A stretch of 64,000 nucleotides of DNA. Origin: Procambarus clarkii (taxonomy: Eukaryota; Arthropoda; Malacostraca; Decapoda; Cambaridae). How positions within the stretch are numbered: the first letter of the stretch is position 1; each line of letters opens with the position of its first letter. Below are positions 2-63,315 of the stretch, in pieces. The notes beneath the pieces are model-generated. The model made no database searches, was not told where the DNA came from, and saw only the letters and a program-made list of their open reading frames with translations. The stretch covers positions 38,009,996 through 38,073,995 of the forward strand of contig NC_091160.1 of assembly GCF_040958095.1 (NCBI RefSeq), written 5' to 3'. Both the position numbers and the translations under genes were made by a program.

Positions 2-656
2 CACATAGAGGAGGTGAATAAAGAACTAGAAAAGTATAAAGAAGAAATAAAAGCGACATATGCTGAAGTTGTAAAAGAGAAAGAGACTATCAAAGAAGTG
101 TGTTCGGAAGTCAAAACCAGAAATGACCAACAAGAAGCAGAAATTAGGCAAGCAATTAGGAAAGAACTGGTTACCAACAGTAAACTGGTACAAAACACTG
201 CAGATAGAACTAAGTCCATAATCATTTTTGGATGTTTAGAGAAGGAAATTTCATCTAGGGTGGACCGAGCGGCAGAAGAGATGAAAATCATAGAGAAAAT
301 AGTAGGTTTAGGAGAAGGCTCAAAGGAAAATGTCAGTGATTTTAGAAGAATAGGAAAATATGAGAAAGAAAAGAACCGCCCCTTAAGGGTGACCTTTAAT
401 GGAGTGAAAAACATGATGGAAGTGCTAAGATGATCACTCTGCCAGGAAACTGCAGAGTGATGAGGTTGGCAAATCTTGGTCAATAAGACAAGACCTCTCC
501 AAGGAAGACAGAGAAAAGCTGAAAATGAACTTAATTGAGGCAAAACGGCTAAATGGGGATAGAAATGAAGAAGACAGAAATTCTTTTTTTTACAAAGTGA
601 CAGGGACTGGAAAGCTTGTGAAATGGTACATAAAAACAAAGCAACAAGATCAGTAG
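2..656 (+). pseudogene. LINE ORF1 (partial, one frameshift)
   Basis: ORF1 of the same LINE, open at the left window edge. The visible N-terminal part is rich in Lys and Glu with heptad-like spacing, consistent with the coiled coil that helps LINE ORF1 proteins multimerise on RNA. A stop at 431-433 ends this frame. Reading resumes in another frame from about 438 (residues SARKLQSDEVG) to a TAG at 654-656, so one indel near 429-437 splits the gene. The restored frame would overlap the ORF2 start at 623, a usual arrangement in these elements. No zinc knuckle is seen in the visible part. Confidence 0.7.
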
Positions 657-7567: not shown

Positions 7568-9612
7568 CTCACCTAATTGTGCTTGCGGGGGCTGAGCTTT
7601 GGCTCTTTGGTCCCTCCTCTCAACTGGTGTACAGATTCCTGAGCCTACTGGGCTCTATCATATCTACAATTGAAACTGTGTATGGAGTCAGCCTCCACCA
7701 CATCACATCCTAGTGCATTCCATTTATTAACTACTCTTGACATTGAAATTTTTTTTCTTACGTCTCTGTGACTCATCTGGGTACTAAGTTTCCACCTGTG
7801 TCCCCTTGTTCGTGTCCCACCCGTGCTGAAGAGTTTGTCTTTGTCCACCCTGTCAATTCCCCTGAGAATTTTGTAATGGTTATCATGTCTCCCCTTACTC
7901 TTCTGTTTTCCAGGGATGTGAGGTTCAGTTCCTTTAGCCTTTCCTCGTAGCTCATTCCTCTCAGTTCCAGGACGAGCCTGGTGGCATACCGCTGAATCTT
8001 CTCTAACTTTGTCTTGTGTTTAACTAGGTATGGACTCCAGGCTGGAGCTGCATACTCCAGGATTGGTCTTACAGAAGTGGTATACAGGGTCCTGAACGAT
8101 TCCTTACACAAGTTTCTAAAGGCAGTTCTTATGTTGGCCAGTCTAGCATATGCCGTTGATGATATTCTTTTGATGTGGGCCTTTGGGACAGGTTCGGTGT
8201 GATATCAACCTCCAGATCTTTCTCTCTATTTGACTCTTGCATGATTTCACCTCCCAGATGATACCTTGTGTTCAGCCTCCTGCTCCCTTCGCCTAATTTC
8301 ATTACCTTACACTTCCCTGAGTTGAACTTTAGCAGTCATTTTCTAGACCATTCCTCCAGTTTGTCCAGGTCATCCTATAGTCTCTGTCTATCTTCATCCG
8401 TCTTGATTCTTCTCATAATTTTTGCATCATCAGCAAACACTGAGAGGAACGAGTCTATACCTTCCGGAAGATCATTTACATATATTAGAAATAGGATGGG
8501 TCCAAGTACTGAGCCCTGTGGGACTCCGCTGGTAACATTTCGCCACTGATGTCTCCCCCCTCACCGTTACTCGCTGTTTCCTGTTGCTTAAGTATTCCCT
8601 TATCCACTGGAGCACCTTCCCTTTTACTCCTGCCTGTTGCTCCAAATTTCTTAATAGCCTTTTATGGAGTACTGTATCAAAGGCTTTCTGGCAGTCCAGG
8701 AAAATGCAGTCTGCCCACCCATCTCTTTCCTGCCTAATTTTTGTTGCCTGGTCATAAAATTCTATTAAACCTGTGAGGCACGATTTACCATCCCTGAACC
8801 CATGTTGGTGGTGCGTTACAAAGTCATTTCCCTCCAGGTGCTCTATGAGTCTTTTCCTCACGATCTTCTCTATCACCTTGCATGGTATACAAGTTAAGGA
8901 AACTGGCCTGTAGTTCAGTGCCTCTTGCCTGCGCACAGGACTCGTAATTCTGTGGCGCGGGTTCGATTCCCGCACGAGGCAGAAACAAATGGGCAAAGTT
9001 TCTTTCACCCTGAATGCCCCTGTTACCTAGCAGTAAATAGGTACCTGGGAGTTAGTCAGCTGTCACGGGCTGCTTCCTGGGGGTGGAGGCCTGGTCGAGG
9101 ACCGGGCCGCGGGGACACTAAAAGCCCCGAAATCATCTCAAGATAACCTCAAGATATTGGGACTACGTTAGCTGTCTTCCAACTTTCTGGTAAGTCTCCT
9201 GTTTCCAGTGACCTGTTATACACCATAGAGTGGCACACTTAGTGCTTCTGCACCTTCCTTTAGTATCCATGGTGAGATTTTGTCAGGCCCAACAGCCTTT
9301 GTCACATCCAGCTCCAGCAGACACCTTTTGACCTCATCACTGGTGACGTCAAATTCCTCCATGGTTGCTTGGTTTGCCTCCTCATTTAGTGCAGGGGCTT
9401 CTCCTTGTTCTATTGTGAAGACCTCCTGGAATCTCTTGTTGAGTTCTTCACACACCTTGTCATTCTGTGTGTATCTGTTCTCCCCTTTTCTCAGTTTCAT
9501 CACCTGTTCCTTCACTGCTGTTTTCCTCCTGATGTGGCTGTAGAGCAGCTTTGGTTGGGTCTTGGCTTTACTCGCTGTCATTTTCAAACTGTGTCTCTGC
9601 TTCCCTCCCTCC
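7568..9612 (-). mobile_element. 5'-truncated LINE (Jockey/CR1 group), decayed, SINE-interrupted
   Basis: Minus-strand reading gives ordered but frame-broken RT pieces. A thumb-proximal block (about 9587-9216) contains KAVGPDKISPW. After a nested SINE, NYRPVSLTCIPCKV, HGFRDGKSC and DCIFLDCQKAFDTV follow (about 8910-8550). The C-terminal block (8111-7645) reads ILEYAAPAWSPYLV and RGMSYEERLKEL, ending in the short 3' UTR near 7568. Its layout parallels the element at 1-3580 but the sequence is well diverged, so it is a second family. It appears 5'-truncated near 9612, beside a short GT run. Confidence 0.85.
8934..9156 (+). mobile_element. tRNA-derived SINE nested in the LINE
   Basis: The B box ggttcgattcc (8960-8970) sits in a tRNA-like arm (cgcgggttcgattcccgc), followed by the family body (tttctttcaccc, ttacctagcag, aggtacctggga) and the tail ggaggcctggtcgaggaccg to cctcaagata. 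The LINE reading resumes on both sides, so insertion was into the LINE. The tRNA-like head lacks its first part. Confidence 0.85.
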
Positions 9613-10403: not shown

Positions 10404-10665
10404 TTATCTTGAGTTATCTTGAGATGATTTCAGGGCTTTAGTGTCCCCACGGCCCGGTCCTCGACCAGGCCTCCACCCCCAGGAAGCAGCCCGTGACAGC
10501 TGACTAACACCAAGGTACCTACTTTACTGCTAGGTAACAGGGGCATAGGGAGAAAGAAACTGCCCATTGTTTCTCGCCGGCGCCCAGGAACGAACCCGGG
10601 ACCACAGGATCACAAGTCCAGTGTGCTGTCCACTCGGCCGACCAACCGGCTCCCAAACACACCGC
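10404..10665 (-). mobile_element. tRNA-derived SINE, full-length or nearly so
   Basis: Reverse complement of the family at 63067. Tail ttatcttgagatgatttcag at the left, body aggtaacaggggcatag, then a tRNA-like head at the right with B box (reads gttcgttcc on the minus strand) and A-box-like ttggccgagtgg. The head resembles a Leu/Ser-type tRNA. Confidence 0.85.
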
Positions 10666-15591: not shown

Positions 15592-40635
<25,044 letters not shown>

Positions 40636-41153: not shown

Positions 41154-44100
41154 GTAAGTTTGTCTCAAATATCTTCCCGGTACCCGGGGTAAAGGGAGCC
41201 AGGTCCTCCCCTGTCTAGGATGTCAGGCTAGGCTTTAAGTTCCGGCTCCGTGTGAGGTGACATTTAGCCGTGAGAGGCAGCTACGAGGGCTGGTCCGGAA
41301 TGTTCTGTAGACCTGTGCAGTGGGGCGCCACATGACAGGGAGAGGTTTCGTGGTGGAAAGGGGAATTTACCTAAGGTCACAGTCTTTCTAGTGGCCTCGA
41401 AAGGGACAGGAAGTCAGTGGCTGGTCAAAGGTCCCTTCTCATTGTTCCTAAGGATCTTTTTATTGGATTTTGAACAGAAGCAGTCTTGGCGTTTATGGCT
41501 TGGGCTGTTACATTGGTTAAACTTGTTTTATCTTTATATAAACTTTAGGCTTGTACATAGGTCCTCCCCCCCCCCCCTAAAAGTCGAACTGCAGACCTTT
41601 CTCAATATAATCCCACAACAGTTGCCTAACTTCCAGGTACCTAGTTACTGTTAGGTGAATGGAAGAATTAAGAGAAAGGAAACTTGCTTAACCACGTTTG
41701 TCCAACTCGGGAATCAAGTCCAGAATCTCCAACTACGAGACAAGAACGTAGCCACTACACTAATCAGACTTATAATAATGGTTGAAAAAGCATCTCCTGT
41801 TTTAATGTCCTACATTGTGGCTTATTGAGCTTGACACTTTTGTTCCTTCTATGTGTTTCGGTTGCCTTAAAAAAGTGGTCTGGATTAATATCCTGCAGCT
41901 TGTTCAGCATTTTAAAGATCTTGATGAGATCAACCCTGTTGTCTGGTTTGTGGTATTGTTCCTATGGCCCTCAACCATTCCTAGTATGAGTGCTGACTTA
42001 GTTTTGGGAATTAATTTTGTTGTGTTATCTTGAACTTTCTCCTCTGCAAATATTTCCTTTTTTAATGTGAGATCTCCACGCTTGATTACAGTAGTCCAAA
42101 TGGAGGCCACCAGACTTGTACAGTTGAATAACCACTTTCATTTCCTTGCTCAAAGGTTCTTTTGACTATTGCTAGGGTTGATGGAAGAGTTGATTTGTTT
42201 AGTAAGATTTAGATGTATGTAATTTTTCACGTAATGTGTTTTGTTAACAGATTTTACTTTTATTAGACCTTACTAACCCACCATAATCTATCCTGTCATA
42301 ACCTAATCCAGCCTAACCTAATGATATATGGTATTTATCAGTTACAATATAAACTGTGTGTGATTTTACTGTAGTTTTGTATGTACTGTATTTCATATCA
42401 TTCTGTACTCTACAGTATGTTATAAAAAAAAATACAATTCTATTATTCTTATTGCTTAGAGATACTTGGACAGTGAGTAAAACAAATTGAGGTGCTCACC
42501 AGAAATCTCAAGTTACTTATTGTACCTTCCAGATACTACTGTGATTACTGCGACACTTACCTCACACATGACTCCGTAAGTATGTCATACTTTACGTATT
42601 AGTAATTATAGGAAAATGTCTCTTCAAATAGGATTGTGGTGCAGAAAATTCTGAATTTATAAATACATGATAATTTCATAACGTACGCATGTTTGCTAGC
42701 TAATATTTGTAAAGATTGCATAATAGGATGTAGAAAGGACATGTAGTACTTTCTACAGTAACAGCATGTTCTGTGTGTGTTCCTTTTAACTCTCATTCTA
42801 ATAACAAAAAAAATCCAAGAAAAATCTTAAGAAATTAAAACTTTCATTTCCCAGATTTCAATTTTGCTGCCTGGAGCACATGTGAACCCTCTAGAAAGGG
42901 GGCATTTCATTACATTAAACACTTCATTTTAATTTTTAAGAATTTTCCTGTATTATTTGTACTGTATAATGAGATGTAACGGCATAATTCCCATATGCTG
43001 TTGTATTTCATTATACAAATACTGTATCTGGTTTCCAAATGATCTTAGGTAGTACTGTACCCTGTACCATAAATACTATATTAAGAACTTATGTAGTATG
43101 TATTGCTTGATTTAATTTATTTCTTAAGTTACTGTAAATGTACATTACTGTACTGTCTTTAATTAGCCTTAGGGTTCTGGTTCTGCATTTTTGTTTAGTA
43201 TAGTAAGTTTAGCCAACCATTAGCACAGTAGTGGTGAATCAAAATTGTTGTTACACTAAGTAAGAGTAACATGAGACCGTAAAACATTTGTCTTTAGTTG
43301 TGAACATTTTTACTCCAGCTGTGAGCATTAGTATCAATATGATGCCCCTTGTTTCATCGTCACTGAATTATTGTGGATAAGCAATTTGTGTATTTGGATT
43401 GAGCTTGATTTTGCTTCAGATGTTTTTTATTTATTTTTGTTGTAATATGTGAACTACATAAATTGTATACGATTGAAACTCGATCATTCTTCACCTTTTG
43501 TAGCATTAATGAAATAACGAATCTTACTGTACATAGGACTGATACTTTTCTCTTGCAAATAATTTTGTGCAGAAAATGCAGCCAGGAAGTGTGGTGAAAG
43601 TGGGGCCAAAGCCAAGGATTATGTGATTAACACTTATATATTTAGTAAAGGTGTAACAAGTGGCTATGCAGGACTAAAATTAACTTGGTTCTTATATAAT
43701 CCCAGATCTTTGCAAATTCCTACAATTTTAACAATACAATTATTGTCATTATTTTTACATTTACCTGCATGATGGTTAAAATACAGCATTCCCTTTTATT
43801 TAAATACATTATTGCAATTTGTGTGCTGTTTTTCTTATCCAGGTTTGTGTATATATATATATGACCAGCTTACATTTTATGAGTCATTGTTTCATTTAAC
43901 TAAACAAACAAATAGAAAATATTACAGTATCTGCAAATTAAAAAAAATGACCTGATATTACAGCCCTCGGTGCGGAAGACTCACTGCCAGGGGCGAAAAC
44001 ACAAGGAAAATGTCAAAATATACTACCAGAAGTGGATGGAGGAGCAAGCTCAGTCTCTGATTGATGCAACAAGTTAGTACTCTATATTGGTGTATTTCTT

Positions 44101-46517
44101 TGCATACATACATACATACAGCACTTTGTATTTTTATAACTAATAGTATACATTGTATTAGAGAATACAGTATATAAAATTGTATATTCTTTCCTAGTTT
44201 GCAGAGACAGAGCTTCGGCTCTTTGGTTTTGTCTCAACAATAGTCAACTGGTTTTCAAGTAATTAATCTTCTGGGTTGTCATTGAATTTGAAACTGTGTA
44301 TGGAGGTGTTCTCTGCCTCTTCACTTTCTTGTACATTCTATTTATTGGCTATTTGAACAATGAATAAATTCTTTGTAACGTGTCAGTGGTTCATTCAGAT
44401 ACATATAGTTTCCATCTGTGTCCCCCCTTGTATATGTACCAACCATGCCAATCTCTCCGTGTTTTGCTGTCGATTATCTTAAAAATTTTGTATGTGGTTA
44501 CAGTATCACATATCCCTCATCTCTTCTTCTTCCTAGTGACATGTGATTTGATTACTAAAGTCTTTCGTTGTACAATAACTCATAACCTTTGACCTCTGTG
44601 ACTTGTCTGGAAGCATACCTGATGACTTTCTCTGGCTTTGTTTTATATTTAATGAGCTACTGATTCCTCTATGGTGGAGCATATTCAAGAATTGTCATAT
44701 ATGGTGTGACAAGTTCTAATGGCACTTCTTACATTGATTAATCTTGCCGAATCAGTTAATGTACAGTTAATGAGAGTTTTGGGAGAGCTGGCTTGGTGAA
44801 ATATCAACCCTGTCTTTTTCAATGTCCAATTACAGAAAGTTTTCCTTAACCCTTTTGTATCTTATGTCTGGTTGTCTATGCCCAGAACCCATACATGCAT
44901 TCATGCACTCCCATGCTCTCACACTCACTATATCTTTCTAATTTGCACACACACTTTTAATGTACTGTAGATTTTATATTAGTAGCTCAAACTTGTTAAT
45001 ATAAACAAAGTTCTTTGTTGGATTCTGTATCCATGGTCTCGGTAATTTGTAGTGTGATACTCCATCATGCAGAGATGTATACTATGTATGTGAGAGTTGT
45101 GCACAATACAGTAAGTCACTTAGAAAATACAATTTTGTATGCAGATGGGAACAGTAGTAGTTTTATATGCTTGAGGATTATGTAGTTTTTTGTAGATATT
45201 CCAGTAGGGATAACTCCTTGCTATAATTGATTGATTAGGTAATAAAACTTTTGTTTTACAGCTGCTGCATTTAAAGCTGGGAAGATCCCAAAGGGAGCAG
45301 CCATTCCTCCACCGACCAGCATGCAAGGTGAGCTCATCGTGTTGACTGCTGTTGGATATCTTAATGATTTCTTAATTTAATTTTGTTTTTATTAAGCATG
45401 AATCAAGTATTCTTCATTTTTGGCCCCTCACAAAAATTGTGTTAATTTTGGTACTTGCATGAATAATGACAAAAAATGACTTGATAAAATAATAAAGTGT
45501 AGAATTTATTGTATGCTAAGTAAAGTGTTTACTTTCAGGAGGACCAGGAGGTCCTGTTGGGCCAGGGGGTCCAGTGGGTCCAGGGCCTCAGAACATGGGT
45601 GGTCCAGGAGGTCCTCCAAGAGGGCCAGGAATGGGGAACATGGGCCCTCCAGGCATGGCTGGTGCAAACATGCCAGGCAACATGGGTATGCCCCCCATGG
45701 GTCCAAGAGGACCCATGATGGGGCCACCAATGATGGGTGGCCCTCCGGGTCCTGGCATGCCACCTGGTATGATGCCAGGTAAGACATTTCTCAGTGTTCC
45801 TGTATGCTACTTAAGTCTGTCCTCTTTTTAAATAAAGATGTGATCAATTATAATTTCTAGTAGTTCATCTTGTGTCAAAAACACAGCAATATTTTCATTC
45901 TGAAATGATATTGAGGCATTCACTAAAAATTATAGTGTTATTTATTTAGTCTCTTGTGGGCCATTTTCATTTGATGTCATTTGCAGATAATTGATTCATG
46001 CAATGTCTTTAAAAAATCCATCTTAATCATCACTTAACAATCATTGTTATTTTCTGTATTCTCAATTACCAACCATATCAAGTTTTCAAGTGTTTAAGCT
46101 TTTTTGAAGGGCTTTTATTAACATTTCAGAAAAAATCATTTTGATTTCATCAAGTTTACTTCTCATATGCAACATTCTATTTCATAACATGGCAGAGCAG
46201 AATGTTACCCCTTATTGTATAAATGGGACACTGTATCTCAGTTCCAGATACTATTATCTTGGACTGTTCATCCATAAAGAACTCTTGTGAGCACGTCACA
46301 TAAGCTTTGCTCTCCCAAGCCTCTTAGGTACCGTGTTTCTTCAACTCTTGTACCATCACTAATACTCAGTTTTACCTAGTTTACTAAAAGATGTTAAATT
46401 AATATAGGTATTTCAGGAATGCGACCTCCGATGGGTGGTCCCATGGGACCAATGATGATGGGCCCTGGTGGGATGCGACCTCCAATGATGGCCGGACCTC
46501 CACAAATAAGACCATAA
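41146..46517 (+). CDS. SNRPC: U1 small nuclear ribonucleoprotein C (six coding exons)
   Basis: U1C binds the U1 snRNP and stabilises pairing of U1 RNA with the 5' splice site in the nucleus. Six exons join in phase to 191 residues. The N-terminal zinc finger is complete: Cys6, Cys9, His24 and His30 in [20 protein letters not shown] followed by [11 protein letters not shown], then [15 protein letters not shown]. The C-terminal 120 residues are Gly/Pro/Met-rich ([19 protein letters not shown]), as in animal U1C, and end QIRP. Human U1C is about 160 residues, so this tail is somewhat longer. The first exon holds only 8 coding bases. The last intron has two in-frame acceptors 9 bp apart. The neighbour AFG3L2 is divergent with no functional link. 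Confidence 0.95.
41565..41770 (-). mobile_element. tRNA-derived SINE, second family, degraded
   Basis: On the minus strand it reads tagtgtagtggctacgttct, a B-box-like gacttgattcc, then tttcctttctcttaattctt and taggtacctgg, the order of the copy at 59688. It sits in SNRPC intron 1 beside a 12-C run. Confidence 0.6.
41790..42130 (-). mobile_element. LINE C-terminal/3' fragment, old
   Basis: A minus-strand frame-broken reading resembles the LINE tail (LINEs here end with ...RRGDMIxxYKI, preceded by an EYxxxVW block): the segment gttgatctcatcaagatctt fits the DLIKIFK-type block. The match is by pattern and is weak. Confidence 0.4.
42533..42575 (+). CDS. SNRPC: SNRPC exon 2 (first zinc ligands)
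   Basis: Encodes [14 protein letters not shown]. The acceptor is ttccag and the donor gtaagt. Confidence 0.95.
43964..44072 (+). CDS. SNRPC: SNRPC exon 3 (zinc finger end, helix)
   Basis: Encodes [20 protein letters not shown] and [16 protein letters not shown]. The donor is gttagt, phase 1. Confidence 0.95.
44200..44960 (-). mobile_element. LINE 3' fragment, old, related to 7568-9612
   Basis: Its plus-strand text parallels 7595-8260 in order: gagcttcggctctttggttt, gaaactgtgtatgga, gtttccatctgtgtcccc, ttaaaaattttgtatgtggt, and the tcatatatggtgtgacaag area. It has many substitutions and indels and lies in SNRPC intron 3. Confidence 0.65.
45262..45327 (+). CDS. SNRPC: SNRPC exon 4
   Basis: Encodes [20 protein letters not shown]. 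The acceptor is tttacag and the donor gtgagc. Confidence 0.94.
45539..45778 (+). CDS. SNRPC: SNRPC exon 5 (Gly/Pro/Met repeats)
   Basis: 80 residues built from GPGGP, MGPPG and GPPM motifs. Collagen-like open frames on the opposite strand are shadows of this composition. Confidence 0.93.
46408..46517 (+). CDS. SNRPC: SNRPC exon 6 (C terminus, stop)
   Basis: Encodes [20 protein letters not shown] to GPPQIRP, then TAA. An alternative acceptor at 46415-46416 (tttcag) would drop three residues in frame. Confidence 0.92.
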
Positions 46518-46626
46518 ATCATATTTATATAGAACTTATAGTAAGAATTTTGATGTACACAATGAACATTTTGAGATAGATGACCTGAAAATTTTATAGA
46601 CAGTTCTACAGTACTGGAGATGGGTT

Positions 46627-46694
46627 AATAAAAATACAACAAACTTTTTTGTTTGTGCAACTTGCTAAATTGGATACCGAGATGTGGAAAATAA
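46627..46694 (+). terminator. SNRPC: SNRPC poly(A) signals
   Basis: AATAAA occurs at 46627-46632 and again at 46689-46694, about 110 and 172 bp after the stop. Either could end the mRNA. Confidence 0.6.
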
Positions 46695-46699
46695 AACTA

Positions 46700-47861
46700 G
46701 CGGTTGATCATGTCCGAAGTAAACCCAATGAAGTTATCATTTTTGTTATTGTAACATCCAGCCAATTTAAAAACAAAAATTAATCATTTTGAGATAACTT
46801 ACTATACTGTACATCTAGGATAACCAAAATTGGGATCATTTTAGTTTTATAAGCTTAATTTGGATTGTGAATGATAAGGATTTTGATAATATTTTGGGTA
46901 TAGCAGTCACATTTCTATTTTTTTTTTTTTAATTTCCAAAGTGATATTTTGATGGTAAAATCAGGGACAATGGAAAGTGGGTCTTTTAGAGCCTTATAAA
47001 AATCAGTGACGTTATGCAATTTGCATTTAGTCTCGGTATTTCTTACAGTGCACATTTATGTACTATTTATAAGACTGTTGAATATAAAATTTGAGTAAAG
47101 AAATGGCCTTTAGCGGAATTTTTATTCAATCATTCTGCCAATATCTTATTAAATGTCACTATCTTAAAATTGCTGTTTTATAAAAGCACAGTAATGTAGT
47201 GTCCCACTGTGTGGGATGGCTGCAGTAGAATTAATTTGTATTATTCTACATTAATATTAAAGTGTACCAGTGCAAATAAAAAAGCAATGTACATCTTGAC
47301 ATGTAAGATGCTCGTCTGTTCTCCAGCAGATAACATGTGCATGTGAGCCGTTACTTTTCTTAAATTAATAGGTTACATTTGTAGCATTGGTTATGAAAAC
47401 ATGCAAAACATGACCTATTAAAAGAGAAGACGAGTTGATATGTGAGTTATAAGTGTATGGTTGTCAGTATGTTTACATTGACTACTATAAATAGAAGTAT
47501 TTAAAGTATTTAATGCAAAATAATTAATGGTTTAAATACAGTTTTATTAAACTTTACATTGTTTGATATACCTGGTGTTTGTGAAATATAACGGTTCATA
47601 ACAGCTTCCTTTGTAATTGGGGAAATACTTAAGAATGTGGCATAGGTACTAACTAGCACAACATGAACATAAAAGTAAAAGGGTAAGCAACTGTAATTAA
47701 GCAGGATCACGGACAGTTCAGTAAGTGAACGGAAAATAGCATTGATGCTAACAGAAATGGCATCCATTTACAAATATGCCTTTGCATGCTCCGCAAGATA
47801 TCTGGAATTATATATGAGAATATGAGTAGCATGGTTTTTGTAAAGGTAAACAGTTAAATTT
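46700..47861. other. No recognised gene (SNRPC downstream spacer)
   Basis: AT-rich. Open frames are short and without family resemblance. Confidence 0.5.
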
Positions 47862-48287
47862 CTGGAGGGAGCCCCTTCGGCTTCTCGGAGCTTACTAGGC
47901 TGATATGCTATTGTCAGACTTTGGCATTAGTCATGTGTATGGAGTTCTATGGGCCTACCGGAGACTACGAGCCAGACCCTGGCCTCCTCAAGAGGCAAGG
48001 GAAGCAATGGCCTATAGAAACCCCCGTGTGGTTGGAAGCATTCTATGTCTGCCATCGAGCAGGTCAGGCACCCAGAAAGATAAGCATCCCGAAACAAACC
48101 CTTATTCTGTTGAAAATATTGCTACCAAAAGCCGAACAAGTGGATAGAACTCCCCTAAACGAAACGAGCAAACGATCATGACGTCACTGCTCCGCTGTCT
48201 GCGCTGATCCCCCCTTCCCTGGGAGGGGGGAAGGGGGAGCCCAAGACCACACGCTAGCTATCTACCCTTTAGTTCTTAGGTTGATGC
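47862..48287 (+). repeat. DIRS left inverted terminal repeat
   Basis: Starts tctggagggagccccttcgg and includes catgtgtatggagttctatg and agcattctatgtctgccat. The reverse complement recurs at 53062-53517. Confidence 0.88.
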
Positions 48288-49299
48288 TAGAGGCTGTGGT
48301 CGTGTCCTCTAGCTTCAGACATAATTTCAGCACTGCTTTGAGTGTAGTGGCTGTCTTCTAGGGGTGCGAGAGCCAGGAGTTATTCTCCAGTACTCGGGCT
48401 GCATGCGCCTAAGGTTCCCTTCCCTAGGTGCCCTGTAAGTACTGCCCTTGGGGCTTGGGGTTACTTTCCACAAGTTCCTTGGGTCCTGTCTCTGCTGGCC
48501 ATTTTATTGCTCGGTTTTTTGACCGCCCTTAGGGTGCTTGGGTGTTTTGTCTCCCTTGTTTACCTTAGGGTAAGAGGCAGTTTGCACTGGTTCGGGGCAC
48601 AGGGTGCTGCATAGCTTGTTTTCACTGATTAGTGGCCGGCTCTGTTCCTCTAGGGTACGCTGTCCTCTTGCTGGGTTTTCTTTTTTGCCTTGTGGGGGGA
48701 TCTGCCCTGCTTTTTGGCAACTTGTGCTTGACCTAGGTTCTCTGGTGGTGCCCCCTGCTAGGTTCCCGTGAGTGTACACGTCCCTGGGGTACAGCTTTAG
48801 TGAGTTTGCTTGGTAGTTTTAGGCGCCGGTTAACGGTACCCCTGCCTGGGGTTACCTGGGAGTAAGTCGTTAAGCGCTCAGGGCCCTAAGAAACCTCTGG
48901 GGGCACTTGGGTCTGATGGATGTGACCCCGGGGTCCCCCCTCGCTTCGTGCGTGTTTGAGGGTTAATCGGTCCCCTTGTCTCAGGGTGACCCTGACTGTC
49001 TTTGCCTCCGTCATGCTGCCTGTTGGGTCGGTGACACTCGACCCTGAGTCCTGTGAGTAATGCTGCTTGCTGGTTACTCAATTTACCCAGTCTAGTGATG
49101 ATCTTATGAGGGTACAGGCGGTGCAGGCGTTGCATGCACGTTTTAGGGTGGTTGCTCACCCGGCTGCCCCGTTTTGCTTATTGTTCCCCTGACTTGGTGG
49201 TGGGGGACGCTTCGACCTTAGTTCAGTCCGCCCCCTCCTTCGTCCTGATCCGAACGTCCTTCCCCTCCTGTGGTTTGTTCTGGTCCCCCCACTCCCCCT

Positions 49300-50700
49300 G
49301 CTTCTGGCCCCGAAGCGTCTGAGGGTTTCGGAGCCGGTGCAGGGTTTAGATGGTCTTGAGGCTCGGGTAGTCTCGGGGGATGCCCCTTCCAGTGTGGCGA
49401 CGGAGGAATTCGAGTCCAGTCTTCCTGCTGAAGCCACCGGGTCTGACCAGTGTGCCCCCTTCCATTTGGTTTACGAGGTTGTGCCAGCCTTGTCTTTTGA
49501 GGCCGGTGCTTTGGGAGATGACTTGGCCCCGGGTCCTGCGGAGGAGGATCCTAGGGCGGGGGAGGGGCTGACTTGGGAAAGGTCCTGCTGGACCCTGCCT
49601 GGGTTTTTCTACCCTCTGAGCGGGGCTTGTTGTTACAAGGAGTGGGGTTCCCTTCTCCCCCCCCCCCCCCCCTCTGCGTTCGAATTGGATTTGGTATCTG
49701 CCCCGGGTTCGGTTGCGTCGGTTCCGTCCTTCCGGAGGTTTTTGGCTTCTCGCATCCAACCTTCTGTGGTGCGGGCAGCCCTTGCGGCTTGCCTCCTGCG
49801 TGACTGATTATGCCTTGGTGATGAATCCGTCTTCGTTCAGGTTTGGGGCTTGGTTCCCTTTCTTTGTCCGTTACGAGGTTCTGGAGTCGTCCTGGCTGGC
49901 GGACTGTCCTGTCTTTGCGTTGGAGGCTTGGCGTTCATTCATACCCGCACGCTTGAGTGGCGCGAGGCTGCGACAGTGGTTCAGGTTTTCCTGGGGGAAG
50001 GGGGTGACCTGGAGCACCTCAATGAGTGCTTGTTTGCCCCCTGCTCTTCCCTGGAATGTGGGCGTGGTGCAGCTCCATGTGCAGGTTCCCTCCCTCTCAA
50101 CTGCACAGGCTGCTGAGGACATGCGTGCCTGTGGCCTTTTGGCTTCGGCTTTGCGTTTCTTTTCCCTCCTGGAGCTGTCGTCGGACTGGCTTGAGGAGGA
50201 TGTAGGGGCGCTCGGGGCCGTCCCTGGGTTCGGTGCCATGGGCTCGGCAGCCTGCTCGTCGGCTGCCTTGCTGAAGCTGTTTGCGCTGATCCTGCGGGAT
50301 GCGGTTTCCCTGTTCTATACTTCCCGGTTCACGTGTCGGCAGGTAGTGCTTGCCTCCTCCCTGGAATCGGCCTGGGCCCTGGCTCTTAGGATGTCTTCGC
50401 CTTTTTGTCCTCTGGTTTTTTAGGATTCTGCCGTAGCCCAGTATATTCAGGCTGCTTCGGCTCCTTGTCGGCCTATGTCTGACTTGTTGGTTCTCCGGGG
50501 GTCCGGGGGGAAGGGGGGACCATCCCGGAGGGGGTCATGCCAGGGCTCGGGGTTCCCCTCGTCGTGGTAGGCCACAGGTGCCCGGTTCGGGTTCGGCGCC
50601 ACCTTTGGTCCCGCATTCGTCTAGTCGGCGCGATGGTCGCTCTGTGCGAGGTTCTGGGTCTCGTAAGGGATGCCGGCCCTTTTGAGGTTCAGCCCTCAGC
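49300..50700 (+). pseudogene. DIRS gag-like ORF, frame-broken
   Basis: Coding-like, GC-rich pieces in changing frames: GLTWERSCWTLPGFFYPLSG (about 49560-49620), AHLNECL-like text near 50020 and EDMRACGLLASALRFFSLLE onward (50110-50420). DIRS gag proteins are poorly conserved, so the identity rests on position before the RT. A C-run near 49660 may cause one frame change. Confidence 0.55.
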
Positions 50701-50879
50701 CCTGAACCTTTTGAGGTTCAGCCCATTGACGGGGCGATGAGGTGGAGGCTTGTGCTGTTCGCACACGCTTGGTCCCACGATTTGTGGGTGTTTCGGGTCG
50801 TTTCTTTCGGCCTGTGGTGGCGTTGGGTGGTCCCCTCCTCCTTCGAGAAGTTCAAGGCTGGCAGAGCACGCCTCTTTAC

Positions 50880-51300
50880 CTGCGCTCTGTCGGGTCATCT
50901 TGGAGTGGGATCGTTTGGGCGTGGTTGAAACGACGACGTCCCTCAGATGGGTTTCCCGTCTGTTCCCAGTCCCGAAACGGGACTGTGCGGACCTGCGGTT
51001 CATTCTGGACTTGTCCCGTCTGAACCCCTGGGTTCATTGCCCTTCCTTTCGCATGACTACGCTGTCCCAGGTTTGTCTCCTGTTGTAGCCGGGCACTTAG
51101 ATGGTGTCCCTGGATTTCTGCGTGTCAATAAGCTCCTGGACGCTTATTGGCACGTCCCGATTCATCCGGGGTTCAGGGGCTGGCTCGGGTTTGTTGTAGG
51201 ACATCAAGGTTACAGCATTCGTTGTCTCCCGTTCAGGTTGAACCTGGCACCTCGCGTGATCACATGCCTTACATGGGTCGTTGAGGTTCATTGTCTGAAC
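50880..51300 (+). pseudogene. DIRS reverse transcriptase, N-terminal part only
   Basis: Reads SLRWVSRLFPVPKRDCADLR and FILDLSRLNPWV, then in another frame KLLDAYWHVPIHP (first catalytic Asp), FRGWLGFVV and LPFRLNLAP. The palm motif with the paired Asp (YLDD type) is absent. The text breaks at a G-run (51301-51320) and resumes in the RNase H region, so an internal deletion removed the second half of the RT. Confidence 0.8.
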
Positions 51301-51320
51301 TGGGGGGAGGGGGGGGGGGG

Positions 51321-51720
51321 TTCGATGCGGTCCTTGGCTCTTTGGCGCTGGTCGCTTCGGGTGACTCGTCTACCGAGTCCTCGGGGTTTGGCTCTCCTGG
51401 CAGTTCACGTGCGGAGTGTGTCCAACGTCTTGGCCGACGGCATGTCCCGTTTCGTTCCCCTCTCCACGGAATGGACGGTCGATGCCGACTCCTTCCGTTG
51501 GCTTTGCCGGACGTTCGGTCGCCCGGAGGTGGACCTCTTCGCCTCAGCGTGGTCACGGCGCCTTCCCCTGTGTGTGGCGCCCTTTCCCGACTGCGAGGCC
51601 ATCGGGGTCAATGCCTTTCGGCAGGATTGGTCAAGGTGGGGGTTCCTGTACCTCTCCCCCGGTTCAGCTGTTGCTCCAGGTGCTGACTCGCTTGGAGACT
51701 TACCAGGGAAGAGTTGTCCT
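51321..51720 (+). pseudogene. DIRS RNase H C-terminal region
   Basis: Reads VRSVSNVLADGMSRF (the conserved N-x-x-AD block), STEWTVDADSFRWL, FGRPEVDLFASAWSRRL and DAFRQDW-like NAFRQDWSRWGFLYLSP. This order is typical of the RNase H and following region in DIRS and related elements. Confidence 0.75.
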
Positions 51721-51879
51721 CTTGGCTCTGTGGTGGCCGGCCCAGCCGTGGTTTCAGGCGCTGCTTACTCGGTGTCCGAAACCGGAGGTTTTCCCGCGGC
51801 TCCGCTTTTTCCAGCAGATCGGCCGAAACGTCATGTGGCTGGTTCGATCTTCCCCTCGAGTCTTCGCGTATGGTACTTT

Positions 51880-52875
51880 TGACTCGAGTTTATCATCATC
51901 TCTATGGTGATCAGGTGGCGTCCTTGTTAGTGTCCCACCTGCGGATTTCGTCTCGGCGGCAGTACAAAGTTTCCTGGTGGTCCCTACTTTTCTTCCTGCA
52001 TCTTCGTCGTTGTCCTTCGCTTTCTATTTGGGTGGTGTTGTCCTTTCTCTCTTTGTTGTTCCAGCACTGTCACCTTATGCCTAGCACTGTCGCCTCGTAT
52101 CGTGTGGTGCCGGTGGAGCCGCTTCAGCGTGCTTTTGGTATTGATGTTACTTCTGCACCGTTTCGAAAGCTGTCTCGGGCGATGTTTCACCTCCGGCCTG
52201 CTCATGTGCCGCCTGAGCCATCCTGGTCATTGGACAGAGCGCTCTTTTATCTTTCTTCTCGGATTGTTGTGGCCCCTTCGGTTCAGGATTGTTTCTCCAA
52301 GGCTCTTTCTCTGTTGGCATTGACCTCTGGGGGTCGGGTTGGTGAGCTTCATGCTCTCCTCCGGCGCAGGGGTTTCTGCTCTTTCGGTCTTCGTGATGGT
52401 TTTGTTCGTTTGCAGCCGTCTCCTTCTTTTCTGGCAAAGAATGAGACTGCTGCTTTCCGGAGGGGTCCCTGGGTTGTGGATGCTTGGTTGGTTAGGCCAG
52501 GGGTGCATCATGTTTTGTGTCCGGTTGCGGCTCTTCGCTGTTATTTGCACGCCACAGCTTGTGTCCGGGGACGCGATTTGGGTTGATCCGGTTTCCCTTC
52601 TTCCCTGTTTGCGGGTGCAGGTCTCCCAGGTCGTCTGCAGAGTTATTAAGGCTAGCCAGCCTGCGGTCTATCCCCGTGCCTAGGACATTCATAAGTTCCT
52701 GCTCTTGCTGCCGTCTTTGGCAACATGTCGTGGGCTGACATTCTGGCGCGGGGCTTTTGGGGGTCGAACAGGGTCCTGGCTGCTCGTTACCTTGTGAACG
52801 TCCATGGGCCAAGTCGGGCCTGTGTCGTTGGCGGTTGCAGCCAGTTGTCTCGACTTCGAGTTGAGAAGTGAGCAG
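51880..52875 (+). pseudogene. DIRS tyrosine recombinase, frameshifted
   Basis: Reads RISSRRQYKVSWWSL (core-binding domain), SLLALTSGGRVGELHALL (likely first catalytic Arg), HHVLCPVAALRCYLHAT, then after frame changes near 52575 and 52720, NMSWADILARGFW and LAARYLVNV with the likely nucleophile Tyr, ending at a stop near 52870. At least two indels break the gene. Identification as a phage-integrase-type recombinase rests on the Arg box, the spacing and the Tyr block. Confidence 0.82.
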
Positions 52876-52919
52876 CGACTGCCTCCCAGGTAAGTCCCTA
52901 AGTTTTTCCTCTGTAGGTA

Positions 52920-53020
52920 GTTATCTCCGGGGAGCCGAAGGGTCTTTCCCCCAGAAAACCAGCGTTGAATGTAATGAAACGCCATTTTCTGGGCGAGACC
53001 CGGAGGCTCCCCGGCATTTC
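52920..53020 (+). repeat. DIRS internal complementary region
   Basis: The left half (ctccggggagccgaagggtc) is complementary to the left element end. The right half (gaaacgccattttctgggcg, then agacccggaggctccccgg) is complementary to the right end. They meet around ccagcgttgaatgtaatg. In the DIRS model this region templates the end-to-end junction. Confidence 0.8.
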
Positions 53021-53061
53021 TCCCTCCCTCCGGTCGGCGTTTTTTTTTTGCGTGTTTTGAC

Positions 53062-53517
53062 ATCCAGCCTAAGAACTAAAGAGTGGATAGCCGGCGTGTG
53101 GGGTCTGGGGCTTTCCCTACCCCTCCTGGGGAGGGGGGAGCTGCGCAGACAGCGGCGCGGTGACGTCATGATCCTTTGCTAGTTTCGTTTAGGGGAGTTA
53201 TATCCATTTGTTCAGCTTTTCGTAGCAATATTTTCACCAGAATAGGGGGTTTGTTTTGGGATGCTTACCTTTCTGAGTGCCTGACCCGGTTAATGGCAGA
53301 CATAGAATGTTCCCAATCACACGGGGGTTTCTATAGGCCATTGCTCCCCTTGCCTCTTCTGAGGAGGCCAGGTTCTGGTTCGTGGTCTCCGGTAGGCCCA
53401 TAGAACTCCATACACATGACTGATGCCAAAGTCTGACATTAGCATATCAGCCTAGTAAGCTCCGGGGAGTCTCCGGGTCTCACCCAGAAAATGGCGTTTC
53501 ATACATTCAACGCTGGT
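53062..53517 (-). repeat. DIRS right inverted terminal repeat
   Basis: Inverse of 47862-48287, with indels. The outermost part (ctccgggtctcacccagaaa, catacattcaacgctgg) extends slightly beyond the left repeat. Confidence 0.88.
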
Positions 53518-53713
53518 TTTTTTGTAGGTTGTAGACCTGGAAATGATGGATTGGAATGCTCTGGGAATTACATAAATTGTAGTGATTGAGGTTGTCTGCT
53601 GCAATAAAATGTTTTCTTAATGGAATTGAGGATTTGGAAAACTGAACGAGGAACCAGGTTAAATATTTGTAAGTGAAGTAAAATCAACATTAGCTACAGA
53701 TGCTCGAGGCCTG

Positions 53714-53950
53714 ATGGTCGAGGACTTTGCCTCCATGCTTATGCCACCACTCATAGGAGCAGCATACTCCAAAGATAAACATTTACAATCTGGAGGATTG
53801 GCCATGTTAAACTTTGCCAATTTCCTGTTTCAGCGCCTCAGTGCGGCGATCCAGAGAGGAAACGCCTGCTGCGTCCTCGGTTCCTGTTCGGAAGCAGAGG
53901 TGCTCCAAGAGATCTATAACCTGCAAATCCTATTGTATTCCGATGTATAT
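53714..53950 (+). other. Unassigned coding-like fragment
   Basis: The frame opens MVEDFASMLMPPLIGAAYSK and continues KHLQSGGLAMLNFANFLFQR, then LGSCSEAEVLQEIYNLQ. The composition looks protein-like up to about 53945, where AT-rich repeats begin and the frame loses meaning. I do not recognise the family; its position just after the DIRS end suggests a piece of another element. Confidence 0.35.
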
Positions 53951-54054
53951 ATTGTAGCCTTTAAATATCCAATTATTATTGTAACCTTTAAATATCCAAT
54001 TATATATATATACATATATAACAAGTTATATAAATCAATAAAATTATTTTTCAA

Positions 54055-54258
54055 TGAGAATCAAAAGATGGCAACCTGCCACATGCAGGGCCGTTCGACT
54101 GGAAGCCTCGGAATGAATCGATCATCAACCCCCCCTTGTATGATATGTATCACAAGCATGAAGTCAGATGCTACGGGAGAGGACAACCACAGCCCGGGAG
54201 AAGCCCAGGGCTCGACCGTGCGGCAAGGCAGCGGGAGCCCCTTATATGGAAGCGAATG
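54055..54258 (+). other. Unassigned open frame, exon-like
   Basis: In the frame starting after a TGA near 54054 the text reads SKDGNLPHAGPFDWKPRNES, INPPLYDMYHKHEVRCYGRG, to REPLIWKRM and a stop. It is about 65 codons of balanced composition. No family is recognised. It may be a further piece of the element represented at 53714. Confidence 0.3.
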
Positions 54259-54319
54259 TGACACTAGCGAGCAGACCAGAGCAAAGCTGACCGATCAATG
54301 TTCGTGTGTCTACTAGACA

Positions 54320-55244
54320 CAGCTTCCAGCAATACTTCACTTGGAACTTCTATATATAGTGAATGTTGCACTGCGGACATACGTTTTTTGAGCAATTCGT
54401 ATGTTCATCTTTTTTTTGTATAGTTTTGAAATTTATACGTTTTTCATTGTAATCAAAAGTTTTATTCTACAATTTGAAAGGGGATGCTTAGAAACAAATT
54501 ATTAAAAATGTTAATTTAATATAAAAATTTACATAAGAACTTTAAGAAGAGACGCTAAGGCGGCTGTTGGATTTACCGCCCTAGTCTCGGCTCTTTAAAG
54601 CGCCAGACAAACCTCTTTACTCCCGGCTTTCTCACCAGTAAATACACTAATGGCCATAAAATTGGGCAATGGCTGAAGATTTATAATTACAAACAATATA
54701 AAAAATTTCCTGCATAGAATTGATTGCATATTTAAGCAATGCATTATGAAATATTATTAGAGGTTTTTGCAGTTTTCCACATTTATGCTATTATTATTAT
54801 TAAAATTCCAGCATTGAGCAAAATCTTTCTGAATTCTGTTCCGTTAAACAAAAAATAGTTATTCACCGGTGTAAGTAATATTAAAACTTGCTTTTTTTCA
54901 CAATAAACATACAGAGGCAAAACATATAAAAGTATATACATTTTATTATTGTTAACCCTAAACAATTTCATAGAAAACTAAATTAACCGCAAACACTTAT
55001 ATTTCAATAAATAAATATAAATGGAAAATTATTACTTAGTTTCGTATTTATGCAAATATATAATGTACAGCACTCAGCGATGTGTTTAGACCTATACATC
55101 CGGACAGTATAAAACATCCGGCAAAAATAGTAATTGCCAGAATTAGGCTTAGATACTGTTACCTACATGGCAATCAATTTCTTTCTTTATTATGCACCCC
55201 ATGGCAGCTGCTAAGAATCTCATAACTTTTTTTACTTATTTAAT
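54320..55244. other. No recognised gene (AT-rich spacer)
   Basis: AT-rich on both strands. A short GC-richer patch near 54550-54640 has no assignable structure. Confidence 0.5.
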
Positions 55245-58200
55245 TATATTTATTTATTATTAATTTATTTATTTATATACAAGAAGGTACATTGGGTTTG
55301 TGAGAATACATAGCATAGTATTTACAATCTTGTAAAGCCACTAGTACGCGCAGCGTTTCGGGCAGGTCCTTAATCTAACAGATAATTTTTAAGTAGGTAA
55401 ATTCTAGCAGAATTAATAAAATGATAACAAATACATTGCATGTAAGAAAAAAATTGAGATGAGAGAGATTAGTAAGTATAGTAAAGCACATTGGTATATT
55501 AAAGCTCTGATTGATTACATTGACAACTTGATTGGTAATTTAAACGAAGATTAATAGACACCATACAGCAGATTGATAGCACATATAAGAAGACAGCAAT
55601 GATCCCAATAGTAAAGTTGTTCGGATTGGGTACATAAAGATTGGGAGATTGGGTAGCAATAGATACAGTGCAATTTTAAAGCAACAAGGTAGGAAACTAT
55701 GAAGATGAAATTAGGTACTTTTTTGTTTTGTTTTTGAATGACGCAAAAGTTGGACAGCTTTTCAATTCGTTAGGGAGTGAGTTCCATAGACTGGGTCTCT
55801 TTATTTGCATAGTGTGTTTACACAGAATAAGTTTGACTTTGGGGGTATCAAAGAGATATTTATTTCTGGTGTGGTGATAATGGGTCCTATTACATCTGTC
55901 CAGGGAGAGTTTCAGAGCAGGATTTGCATTTAAGAACAGGGTTTTGTAAATGTAGTTGACACAAGAGAATTTATGGAGTGAGATTATGTTTAGGGAGTTA
56001 AACAAGGGGGCTGAGTGTTGTCTGAAAGCAGAATTTGTTATTATTCTGATAGTAGATTTTTGCTGGGCGATGATGGACTTGAGGTGGTTTGCAGTGGTTG
56101 AACCCCATGCACAGATACCTTAGTTGAGATAGGGATAGATTAGTGCATAATATAGTGAGATGAGAGCAGAGTTAGGTACATAATATCTGATTTTGGAGAG
56201 TATACCAACTGTTTTAGAGACTTTCTTAGTTATGTTTTGTATGTGGGTGCTGAAGTTGAGTCTCTTGTCTAAGAATAGGCCAAGAAACTTTCCATCACTT
56301 TTACTACTAATGTTAACATTGTCTATCTGAAGCTGAATTGCATTTGTTGATTTGTTTCCAAATAAGATGTAGTAGGTCTTTTCTATGTTAAGTGTTAGTT
56401 TGTTGTTAAGTGTTAGTTTGTTGCTTGACATCCATAAGTGAACTTTTTTTTAGTTCATTATTAACAACATTATTTAGTGTATGTGGGTTGGGGTTAGAGT
56501 AGATGAGGGTAGTATCATCAGCAAACAATATAGGTTTCAGAATGTTGGTGACATTAGGCAGATCATTGATGTATATAAGAAATAGGAGAGGCCCCAAGAT
56601 GCTGCCCTGTGGCACTCCAACGGTTATTGGTAGAGTGGAAGAGGTTGTATCATTGATGGCTACACATTGCATGGTGTCTATCATTTAGATAGGATTGGAT
56701 ATAGTCCAGGGCATGGCCTCAGATTCCATAATGATGGAGTTTACGTAAGAGGTAGTTGTGATTAACAGTATCAAAGGCCTTTCTCAGGTCAATGAAGAGT
56801 CCAATCGGAAACTTATTTTTGTCAAGGGCTGAGTAAATTATATCAAGGAGACTAATAATTGCATCGTTGGTACTCTTTTGGGAGCGGAAGCCAAACTGAC
56901 AGGGGCTAAGAATGTCGAATTTTACGAGATAGGAGTAGAGCTGTTTGTAGATAATTTTTTCAACAATTTTTGATAGTATGGGTAGGTTTGATATTGGTCT
57001 ATAATTGTTTATGTCTGCCGGATTACCTCCTTTATGAACTGGCGTTACTCTTGCTTTTTTAAGGATATCAGGGAAGGTGTGACACTCTATAGATTTGTTG
57101 AACAGTAGAGCTATGGGTGGGGCAAGGGCATGGGAGGTGCTCTTGTATACAATGGATGGGATTTCACTGATGTTCCCAGCTTTGGTTTTTAGTGAGTGTA
57201 TGATGGACACATCTGTCGGGCTGATTGGTGAAAGGAGAAGAGAGTGTGGATAGCTGCCTGAGAGATATGTGTCTGGGTCTTTGGGATTTTTCTGGTAAGA
57301 TTAGCACCAACCGATGAAAAGAAGCTATTAAATTCATTTGCCATTTCTAAATCAGTTGACGGTGTATAGCCATCCTTAGAGAGTGTTATTTGGTTGTGGG
57401 AGTGTTGTTTAGTTCCTAGGATATTAGAGATGGTATTCCATGTGCTTTTCATGTTGCCTTTTGCTTCTTTGAATCTAGTCTAATAATATGAAAGTTTAGC
57501 TTTTCTTATGATACTGGTAAGCACTGATGAGTACCTCTTAACTACTTCCTTTGTAACTAGGCTAATCCTAAATTTCTTTTCATATTCATATTTTTTGTTC
57601 ATTGATTTGAATATGCCACTTGTGAGCCACAGATTGTTTATTCTTGTCAGTTATTTGTTTGGTAAGGAGAGGACAATGAGTGTTGTAGAGGGTTTAGAGG
57701 CTTAGAGTTTTGTAGAGAAAGATGTTAGTTAATGAGTTTATATCCTGTGTATTATTGAATTCAGATTCCCAGTTAATATTGTGAAGTGCATCTGTAAGAT
57801 TGCCTAAATCTGATTCACTGTGTAGCCTAAATGAGAGTTTCTTGCTTTTTGATGGTGTTATGCTCATGCTTGCTATGAGGAAGGTAGGATAGTGGTCAGT
57901 TGTTCTGTTATAGATTACCCCAGATGTAAAGGGAGCTGTTATATTACTCCATAAGTGATCCAAGGTAGTGGCAGATGTCGCGACTCGGGTGGTTTTTGTG
58001 ATTGTGGGGATTAGCATACAGAAGTTCATGCTGTTACGGAAATAGTCAACTTGAGGGTTGTTTTGAAGACCCAGGTCAATATTGAAATCACCTCATAGAA
58101 TGATGTGATTTTTGTTGAGATTATTTATAAGATTCCTTACGTTATCTGAGAATAAAGCTATGTTGGTATTGAGAAATCTATAGATGGCACCGATAGTCAA

Positions 58201-58530
58201 GGAGGATTTAAGGGATTTACTGGAGAACTTGGCAAAGGTATATTCACAATAGTCATCTCTATCACTTATGACACTATTGCAGATGAAGGTAACTTTGTAA
58301 TATATTGCTGTGCCACCTCCTTTTTTTATTAGGCCTGCAGTTATGAATGGCTTTATAACCAGCTAAGTTATAGAGTTGGGTATAGTCTTTACTTAACCAG
58401 GTTTCTGTTAAAATAATGAAAGATCATTTATTACCTAGTGCTGTGAGTAGTGCATTTATATCATCAAAATGTTTACCAAGTGATCTAACATTTTGGTTGT
58501 AAACTGATAAGCAGGTGCTATTTAGGAATT
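55245..58530 (-). mobile_element. LINE, second full-structure family, decayed
   Basis: On the minus strand, endonuclease text begins near 58520 (YNQNVRSLGKHFDDINALL, LTETWLS), then GDFNID after an in-frame stop near 58096 and DHLWSNI. The RT reads ARVTPVHKGGN, NYRPISNLPILSKIVEKIIY, QFGFRSQKSTND, GLFIDLRKAFDTVNH, then after a stop and shift [20 protein letters not shown] and FADDTTLI. The C-terminal part runs to about 55697. The 3' UTR (55690-55278) holds the conserved cctgcccgaaacgc motif and ends in TAAA/TTAA repeats. Stops and frameshifts make it inactive. Confidence 0.88.
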
Positions 58531-63066: not shown

Positions 63067-63315
63067 TCCAGCTGAACGGCCGAGCGGACAGCACGCTGGA
63101 CTTGTAATCCTGTGGTCCCGGGTTTGATCCCGGGCGCCGGCGAGAAACAATGGGCAGAGTTTCTTTCACCCTATGCCCTTGTTACCTAGCAGTAAAATAG
63201 GTACCTGGGTGTTAGTCAGCTATCACGGGCTGCTTCCTGGGGGTGGAGGCCTGGTCGAGAACCGGGCCGCGGGGACACTAAAGCCCCCGAAATCATCTCA
63301 AGATAACCTCAAGAA
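63067..63315 (+). mobile_element. tRNA-derived SINE, best-preserved copy
   Basis: The head gaacggccgagcggacagca resembles a Leu/Ser tRNA A box. The B box is gggtttgatcc near 63120, with a palindromic arm cccgggtttgatcccggg. The body tttctttcaccctatgccct and tail ggaggcctggtcgagaaccg to aagataacctcaaga complete the family layout. Confidence 0.88.

Follow-up and report, generated by a model that had tools for sequence, protein, structure and literature searches.

The closest described systems to the element reported here are the DIRS1-like tyrosine-recombinase retrotransposons. They are common among animals, with more than 4000 copies in 30 species (PMC3266345). Among decapods, one study reported them from every species it tested, 8 caridean and 3 astacidean (PMC2685390), and DIRS elements make up less than 1% of the repeat content in almost all species, with 8.84% in Macrobrachium nipponense (PMC10454600). 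We analysed a 64,000-nucleotide stretch of the Procambarus clarkii genome (contig NC_091160.1, positions 38,009,996 to 38,073,995), hereafter called the window. Positions 47859 to 53520 of the window are very probably (about 95%) a dead insertion of a DIRS1-like tyrosine-recombinase retrotransposon, and the layout reported for DIRS1-like elements in PMC3266345 is also that of this copy.

In Table 3 of PMC3266345, AcDIRS2 of Anolis starts with TTT, has AAA at its junction, a 28-nt extension and internal regions of 39-60, all near the window values. When AcDIRS2 is taken together with XtDIRS2/3 of Xenopus, the start is TTT and the junction AAA, as in the window element, the right extension is 28-34 nt long (28 in the window) and the internal regions 39-43 plus 60-65 nt (40 plus 60), and a long overlap of the pol and recombinase frames is common to them and to the window family. 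These elements are 5.6-6.2 kb long, compared to 6.2-6.4 kb for the window family, from which the window copy departs by lacking about 0.7 kb of pol. The inverted repeats differ as well. At about 430 bp, those of the window are longer than any in the 28-element table of the same survey (66-316 bp), than the ∼120 bp given for Xenopus elements (PMC9210276), and than those of nine caecilian contigs (61-343 bp, PMC8498967). The decapod DIRS1-like families (Alvi and others, PMC2685390) share with the window element DLFAS, a DIRS1-like specific pol motif; they are partial pol sequences, likened to it by motif and not by alignment. PAT-like and Ngaro elements are likewise tyrosine-recombinase retrotransposons, but they carry split direct repeats in place of the inverted repeats and internal complementary region seen here.

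Terminal repeats and internal complementary regions

The limits of the element could be read exactly from the sequence, from TTT at 47859-47861 to TTT at 53518-53520. Its non-coding parts are the following.

47859-48287, + strand: left terminus, starting with TTT; inverted terminal repeat of about 425-430 bp
52918-52957, + strand: left internal complementary region; reads as the inverse complement of the left end
52955-53014, + strand: right internal complementary region; reads as the inverse complement of the right end, extension included
53065-53492, + strand: right inverted terminal repeat
53493-53520, + strand: right extension of 28 nt, ending with TTT within a T-run

The original prediction had described a DIRS-like element with intact terminal architecture and a deleted reverse transcriptase (RT) core, in which both inverted terminal repeats and an internal region complementary to both outer ends could be read. 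All of this was confirmed. When the window was compared with itself, 47859-48283 and 53065-53490 formed an inverted pair 86.7% identical over 430 columns (E 5e-144), a match far above chance. In the internal region, 52955-53014 is complementary to 53462-53520 at 95% (E 1e-19), the extension 53493-53520 being complementary to this region only, and for 52918-52957 and the left end the complementarity is 80% across 40 nt. The two halves overlap at AAA 52955-52957, the circular junction, matching the TTT found at both element ends. The TTT limits, the AAA junction, the 28-nt extension and the internal regions of 40 and 60 nt lie within the values tabulated in PMC3266345 and bear out the further claim that the ends are preserved.

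As the original prediction had advised, relatives were looked for elsewhere in the genome. An element search gave 27,299 first-look candidates, of which 40 were scored; 31 stretches were retrieved. Ten relatives are each contained in a single stretch; eight of these are 6197-6412 bp long and two are internally deleted (L022 and L026). Copies of 6.2-6.4 kb retaining the pol block were recovered. The terminal repeats, hereafter arms, could be compared in 14 of the 24 relatives examined, those in which both ends were usable; the others had one end missing or partial (L015, L019, L020, L021, L023, L024, L025, L027, L041 and L042). Inverted arms were present in the 14 relatives used. Together with the window copy, all 15 copies start with TTT, and 13 of them, the window copy included, end with TTT. 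The right internal region aligns at 58 of 60 positions in the window copy (2 gaps) and at 57-60 of 60 in the eight young relatives described below; the left one aligns at 33 of 38 (3 gaps) and at 37-38 of 39 (2-4 gap columns), respectively. As the young relatives match well at the same places, the weaker left match of the window copy is real but decayed. We also compared the 20-nt flanks on the left and right of each copy. The longest common string was 3-6 nt in 14 of the 15 copies, within the range of 2-8 nt obtained for 210 mismatched flank pairs, and we concluded that these copies have no target-site duplication; the exception is L040, with 8 nt.

Long inverted repeats alone are also found in DNA transposons, and the locus might then be a DNA transposon of this kind with an acquired pol, or else an element of PAT or Ngaro type, whose repeats are direct and split. 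We regard this as hardly credible. Among the 20 largest of 28 repeat families in 47000-54600, the longest direct repeat is 33 nt, and the terminal repeats are inverted, where direct ones would have contradicted the predicted class. Moreover, the complements of the two ends meet at AAA within the internal region, the architecture is common to the 15 copies, and in relatives the same ends enclose an RT containing YLDD, a DLFAS region and a recombinase frame.

Reading frames and the deletion in pol

The coding remains of the window copy were located mainly with the frames of L028, one of the young relatives.

48961-50697, + strand: remains of a gag-like frame (tblastn with the L028 frame, best E 4e-99), in pieces lying in three frames, with stops and frameshifts
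50741-51282, + strand: N-terminal part of pol, then RT as far as the ...NLAPRV... motif (E 5e-75 in tblastn with L028 pol)
51283-51286, + strand: deletion junction, with a 2-3 nt microhomology, (T)GG, common to both sides in most relatives compared
51286-51879, + strand: remainder of pol, comprising the last part of RNase H and the DLFAS region; it shares its frame with the RT piece and stays open across 199 aligned positions
51302-51320, + strand: G-run (with one A) within the RNase H frame; it exceeds by about 12 bases that of a second family copy of the window (see next section) and of most relatives compared
51318-52835, + strand: tyrosine recombinase frame, broken, overlapping pol; the R box (GRVGEL) and RYL box are kept and the HxxR pair is lost

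All three frames, gag-like, pol and recombinase, contain stops or shifts, that of pol including a frameshift between 51115 and 51133. In both L028 and L029, the pol frame is 753 codons long, contains YxDD and DLFAS, and is overlapped by a recombinase frame of 945 codons. The L028 pol has YLDD and matches Pfam RVT_1 at 2.5e-17, with RT_RNaseH at 0.004, below the cut-off; its best relatives of solved structure are 4ol8 (RT/RNase H, 1.4e-8) and 7q5b (Ty3-G pol, 6.2e-8). The L028 recombinase frame contains GRVGEL, HDVRK and RYL in this order. GRVGEL, HxxR and RYL would be the tyrosine-recombinase residues, and the DLFAS stretch after RNase H may be the methyltransferase, for which no profile match was found in that stretch. 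Neither a protease nor a DDE integrase, whose presence in the interior would have spoken for another class, gave a Pfam match in the three L028 frames or in 9 pieces of the window copy. As for the recombinase of the window copy, it had been described as mostly preserved. This is correct for its length, but the copy has an interrupted frame here and no longer has the HxxR pair.

Some observations weigh against assigning the locus to a DIRS1-like element. The recombinase frame of the relatives has only a weak Pfam match (Phage_int_SAM_4, 0.005, below the cut-off) and no meaningful match in PDB. Profile searches for DIRS domains, which succeeded with the RT of L028, returned nothing reliable from Pfam on the window copy's own pieces, single or joined, and nothing useful from Pfam and NCBIfam on its broken pieces, so that the domain names used here rest on relatives and motifs. 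Finally, in L040, one of the young copies, an identical 8-nt string stands next to each end, a length reached once in the 210 mismatched pairs. This is a repeat that a DIRS insertion should not make.

Compared to the 753-residue pol of L028, the window copy aligns to residues 269-318 and then to residues 559-753, in one frame and with 3 nt between the two segments. About 240 residues (∼0.7 kb) are missing, corresponding to YLDD, thumb, connection and most of RNase H, labels which are in part our assumption, and the deletion is in frame. Across the junction, the distance in 16 relatives is longer than in the window copy by 702-711 bp in 15 cases and by 660 bp in one. The original prediction had placed the loss of the paired-Asp motif at a G-run. 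The YxDD motif is indeed lost, but the breakpoint lies about 16 nt upstream of that run. In addition, L019 and L020, a duplicate pair with common flanks, have long G-rich runs at this place yet keep the pol block, and we concluded that the G-run is not tied to the deletion. The same data bear on whether the missing block could be an assembly or base-calling artefact, as G runs are hard to sequence and one is close to the junction. Given the ∼16 nt that separate junction and run, the retained block in L019 and L020, and the presence of the same junction in a segmental duplicate 2.3 Mb away (97% over a 291-base query), an artefact is extremely unlikely.

This duplicate appears in a search with the 291-base junction query, in which 40 of 4384 candidates were scored, giving 41 rows. 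Two of the 41 rows bridge the deletion, 36 end at query positions 152-163 and three start at 156-187. The second bridging locus, on C11 (G000:C11:40380001-40394000), is continuous with window positions 43645-51643 at 99.5% (8.0 kb, element included) and matches 54001-58508 at 98.3% (4.5 kb); it has a 0.8-kb insert and lacks window 51843-54001, and with it the right part of the element. Because its flanks match those of the window copy, it is a segmental duplicate rather than a second insertion.

It had been proposed that such a copy could be mobilised only in trans. This is possible in principle. The window copy would then be a non-autonomous derivative, deleted before its insertion and copied by the proteins of intact members. 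In favour of this, the copy retains its two ends and its internal region, the deletion leaves the frame intact, the genome contains relatives whose frames are open, and other copies are internally deleted, such as L022 (4.0 kb) and L026 (3.4 kb). Among the 41 rows from 40 scored candidates of 4384, however, the junction was present in the window locus and its flank-matched duplicate only; the same deletion was not found at several insertions with unrelated flanks, and no sign of retrotransposition of the deleted form was detected. L026 and its look-alike L043 share flanks, as do L019 and L020, and the rest of the window copy has decayed too. We therefore consider copying in trans very unlikely for this deletion.

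A dead DIRS1-like insertion that lacks part of pol is the reading we prefer. By analogy with the family, a full-length RNA would have been reverse transcribed, its ends completed on the internal complementary region, and a circle closed at TTT/AAA before being inserted at TTT by the recombinase. The window copy itself has decayed, with diverged arms and three broken frames. About 0.7 kb of pol is missing from between two very short stretches that match each other, and the loss happens to be in frame; we infer that it came after insertion. Segmental duplication has also copied the locus together with its flanks.

The family in the genome

The genome comprises 4.03 Gb in 2308 contigs. It was scanned as a whole with a 25-base pattern taken from the right end, allowing at most 2 mismatches. 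The pattern occurs at 21,539 places (10,774 forward and 10,765 reverse), with 0 for the control. Since a complete copy holds two opposed sites, in the internal region and at the right end, the count corresponds to some ten to twenty thousand 3′ ends that can still be recognised. The locus had been thought to offer a rare full view of the DIRS layout in an animal. With so many end-pattern places, many two-ended copies, and the more than 4000 copies from 30 species in the survey (PMC3266345), this is not the case.

In their conserved part, the two arms of the window copy are 88.1% identical. Those of six other relatives are 81.7-90.6% alike, so that the window copy is not unusual among old ones. 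Eight copies, on C72, C66, C43, C31, C91, C82, C73 and C46, have arms 97.5-99.0% alike and are called young here. With arms 12% different, compared to 1-2.5% in the young copies, and three broken frames, the window copy is old. Among the eight young copies, no flank similarity was found at E 1e-5 in the nearest 227-300 nt. When all the available flank was compared, C66 and C72 had pieces in common at 92%, placed about 1.1 kb apart relative to the element, and one of these pieces also matches a long interspersed nuclear element (LINE) of the window (1128-1705, 79%). Further shared pieces, at differing distances from the element, were found for C31/C66, C43/C66 and C31/C72. The DIRS copies of C66 and C72 thus sit in one and the same kind of repeat, at points of it about 1.1 kb from each other, which means separate insertions. 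We concluded that the young copies inserted separately, in some cases into other repeats. Three long open frames are present in L028, L029 and L039, gag being cut by the locus edge in L028 and L029; in the other five, at least one frame is interrupted or fused. The family has moved recently.

On whether left and right arms are inherited separately, a tree and site counts pointed in opposite directions. In the tree, the left arms of the window copy's subgroup group together (93/91), as do the right arms of the young group (87/96). By counts, side-specific sites number 2 and copy-specific sites 9 in the old subgroup, and 0 and 3, respectively, in the young one.

The distribution of the end pattern was looked at on C1 (G000:C1:1-29740295). 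For the first 100 exact places (78 after merging those within 1 kb), the ratio of variance to mean per Mb was 6.3, compared to a null maximum of 2.0, and the places are strongly clumped, with gaps of 3.9-7.5 Mb. Read by eye, a pattern from the window LINE occupies mostly the same parts of C1, and clumping is therefore no peculiarity of DIRS. Outside the genome, protein scans of viral contigs for relatives returned none, and an RT pattern had 0 occurrences in viral contigs. In genome contigs the same pattern was found at 4 places, all due to chance judging by their translations.

The window itself contains a second copy of the family, which had been overlooked.

33193-35555, − strand: second, more decayed copy, with RNase H, recombinase frame, internal complementary region and right terminal repeat; the 5′ limit is approximate

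Differences between the two window copies were counted per codon position. They accumulate at third positions in the recombinase end (5/44, 4/43, 20/43), the first part of the recombinase (19/119, 27/119, 40/120), the RNase H/DLFAS stretch (20/82, 16/80, 26/81) and a later pol stretch (7/56, 11/57, 21/56). No third-position excess was seen in the middle piece of the recombinase (13/46, 7/47, 7/47), nor when the whole stretch was read in one frame (69/313, 74/314, 72/313). On balance, these counts fit two source lineages that were under selection before insertion. Beside this second copy, at 36280-36545, the ends look by eye like mutual inverted repeats, perhaps those of a small DNA transposon.

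Neighbouring features and meaning of the family

The LINE mentioned above is at 569-3547 on the + strand. It has an apparently intact open frame of 993 codons with endonuclease and RT domains (RVT_1, 2.5e-32), an (AC)n run of some 630 bp comes after it, and a 27-base pattern taken from it occurs exactly 3437 times in the genome. A repeat family of about 230 bp, 82-95% alike, is found at 8931-9156, 10405-10640, 21397-21846 and 63077-63314; its start resembles a transfer RNA (tRNA; Rfam match at 8920-8981), and it is likely a tRNA-derived short interspersed nuclear element. At 20193-20585 on the − strand, an exon-like frame, presumably AFG3-like, matches AAA lid and Peptidase M41 and overlaps a 55-bp tandem repeat of three units (20162-20328). 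Half a kilobase to the right of the DIRS element, 54063-54327 on the − strand is a possible 7SK gene. The Rfam match to 7SK RNA scores 35.8 bits (gathering threshold 35; E 7.6e-8 in a short search), with a well matched 3′ hairpin and a TTTT end, and the stretch lies within the part also present in the C11 segmental duplicate.

As a single copy, the window element is of little importance. It is a new but dead representative of a known superfamily, a decayed member that is ordinary and not rare. It is in our view about an even bet that the window gives a sample of an animal DIRS family that is very numerous and was recently active, with arms of ∼430 bp, longer than in the published tables compared. 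If so, the many dated copies would make the model of DIRS replication testable, notably whether both arms are rewritten at each cycle and whether deleted forms are carried in trans. The family is of some use in this respect: within a single animal genome it has thousands of copies, among them recent separate insertions with open frames, and its long arms and many dated copies suit tests of how the ends are rebuilt.

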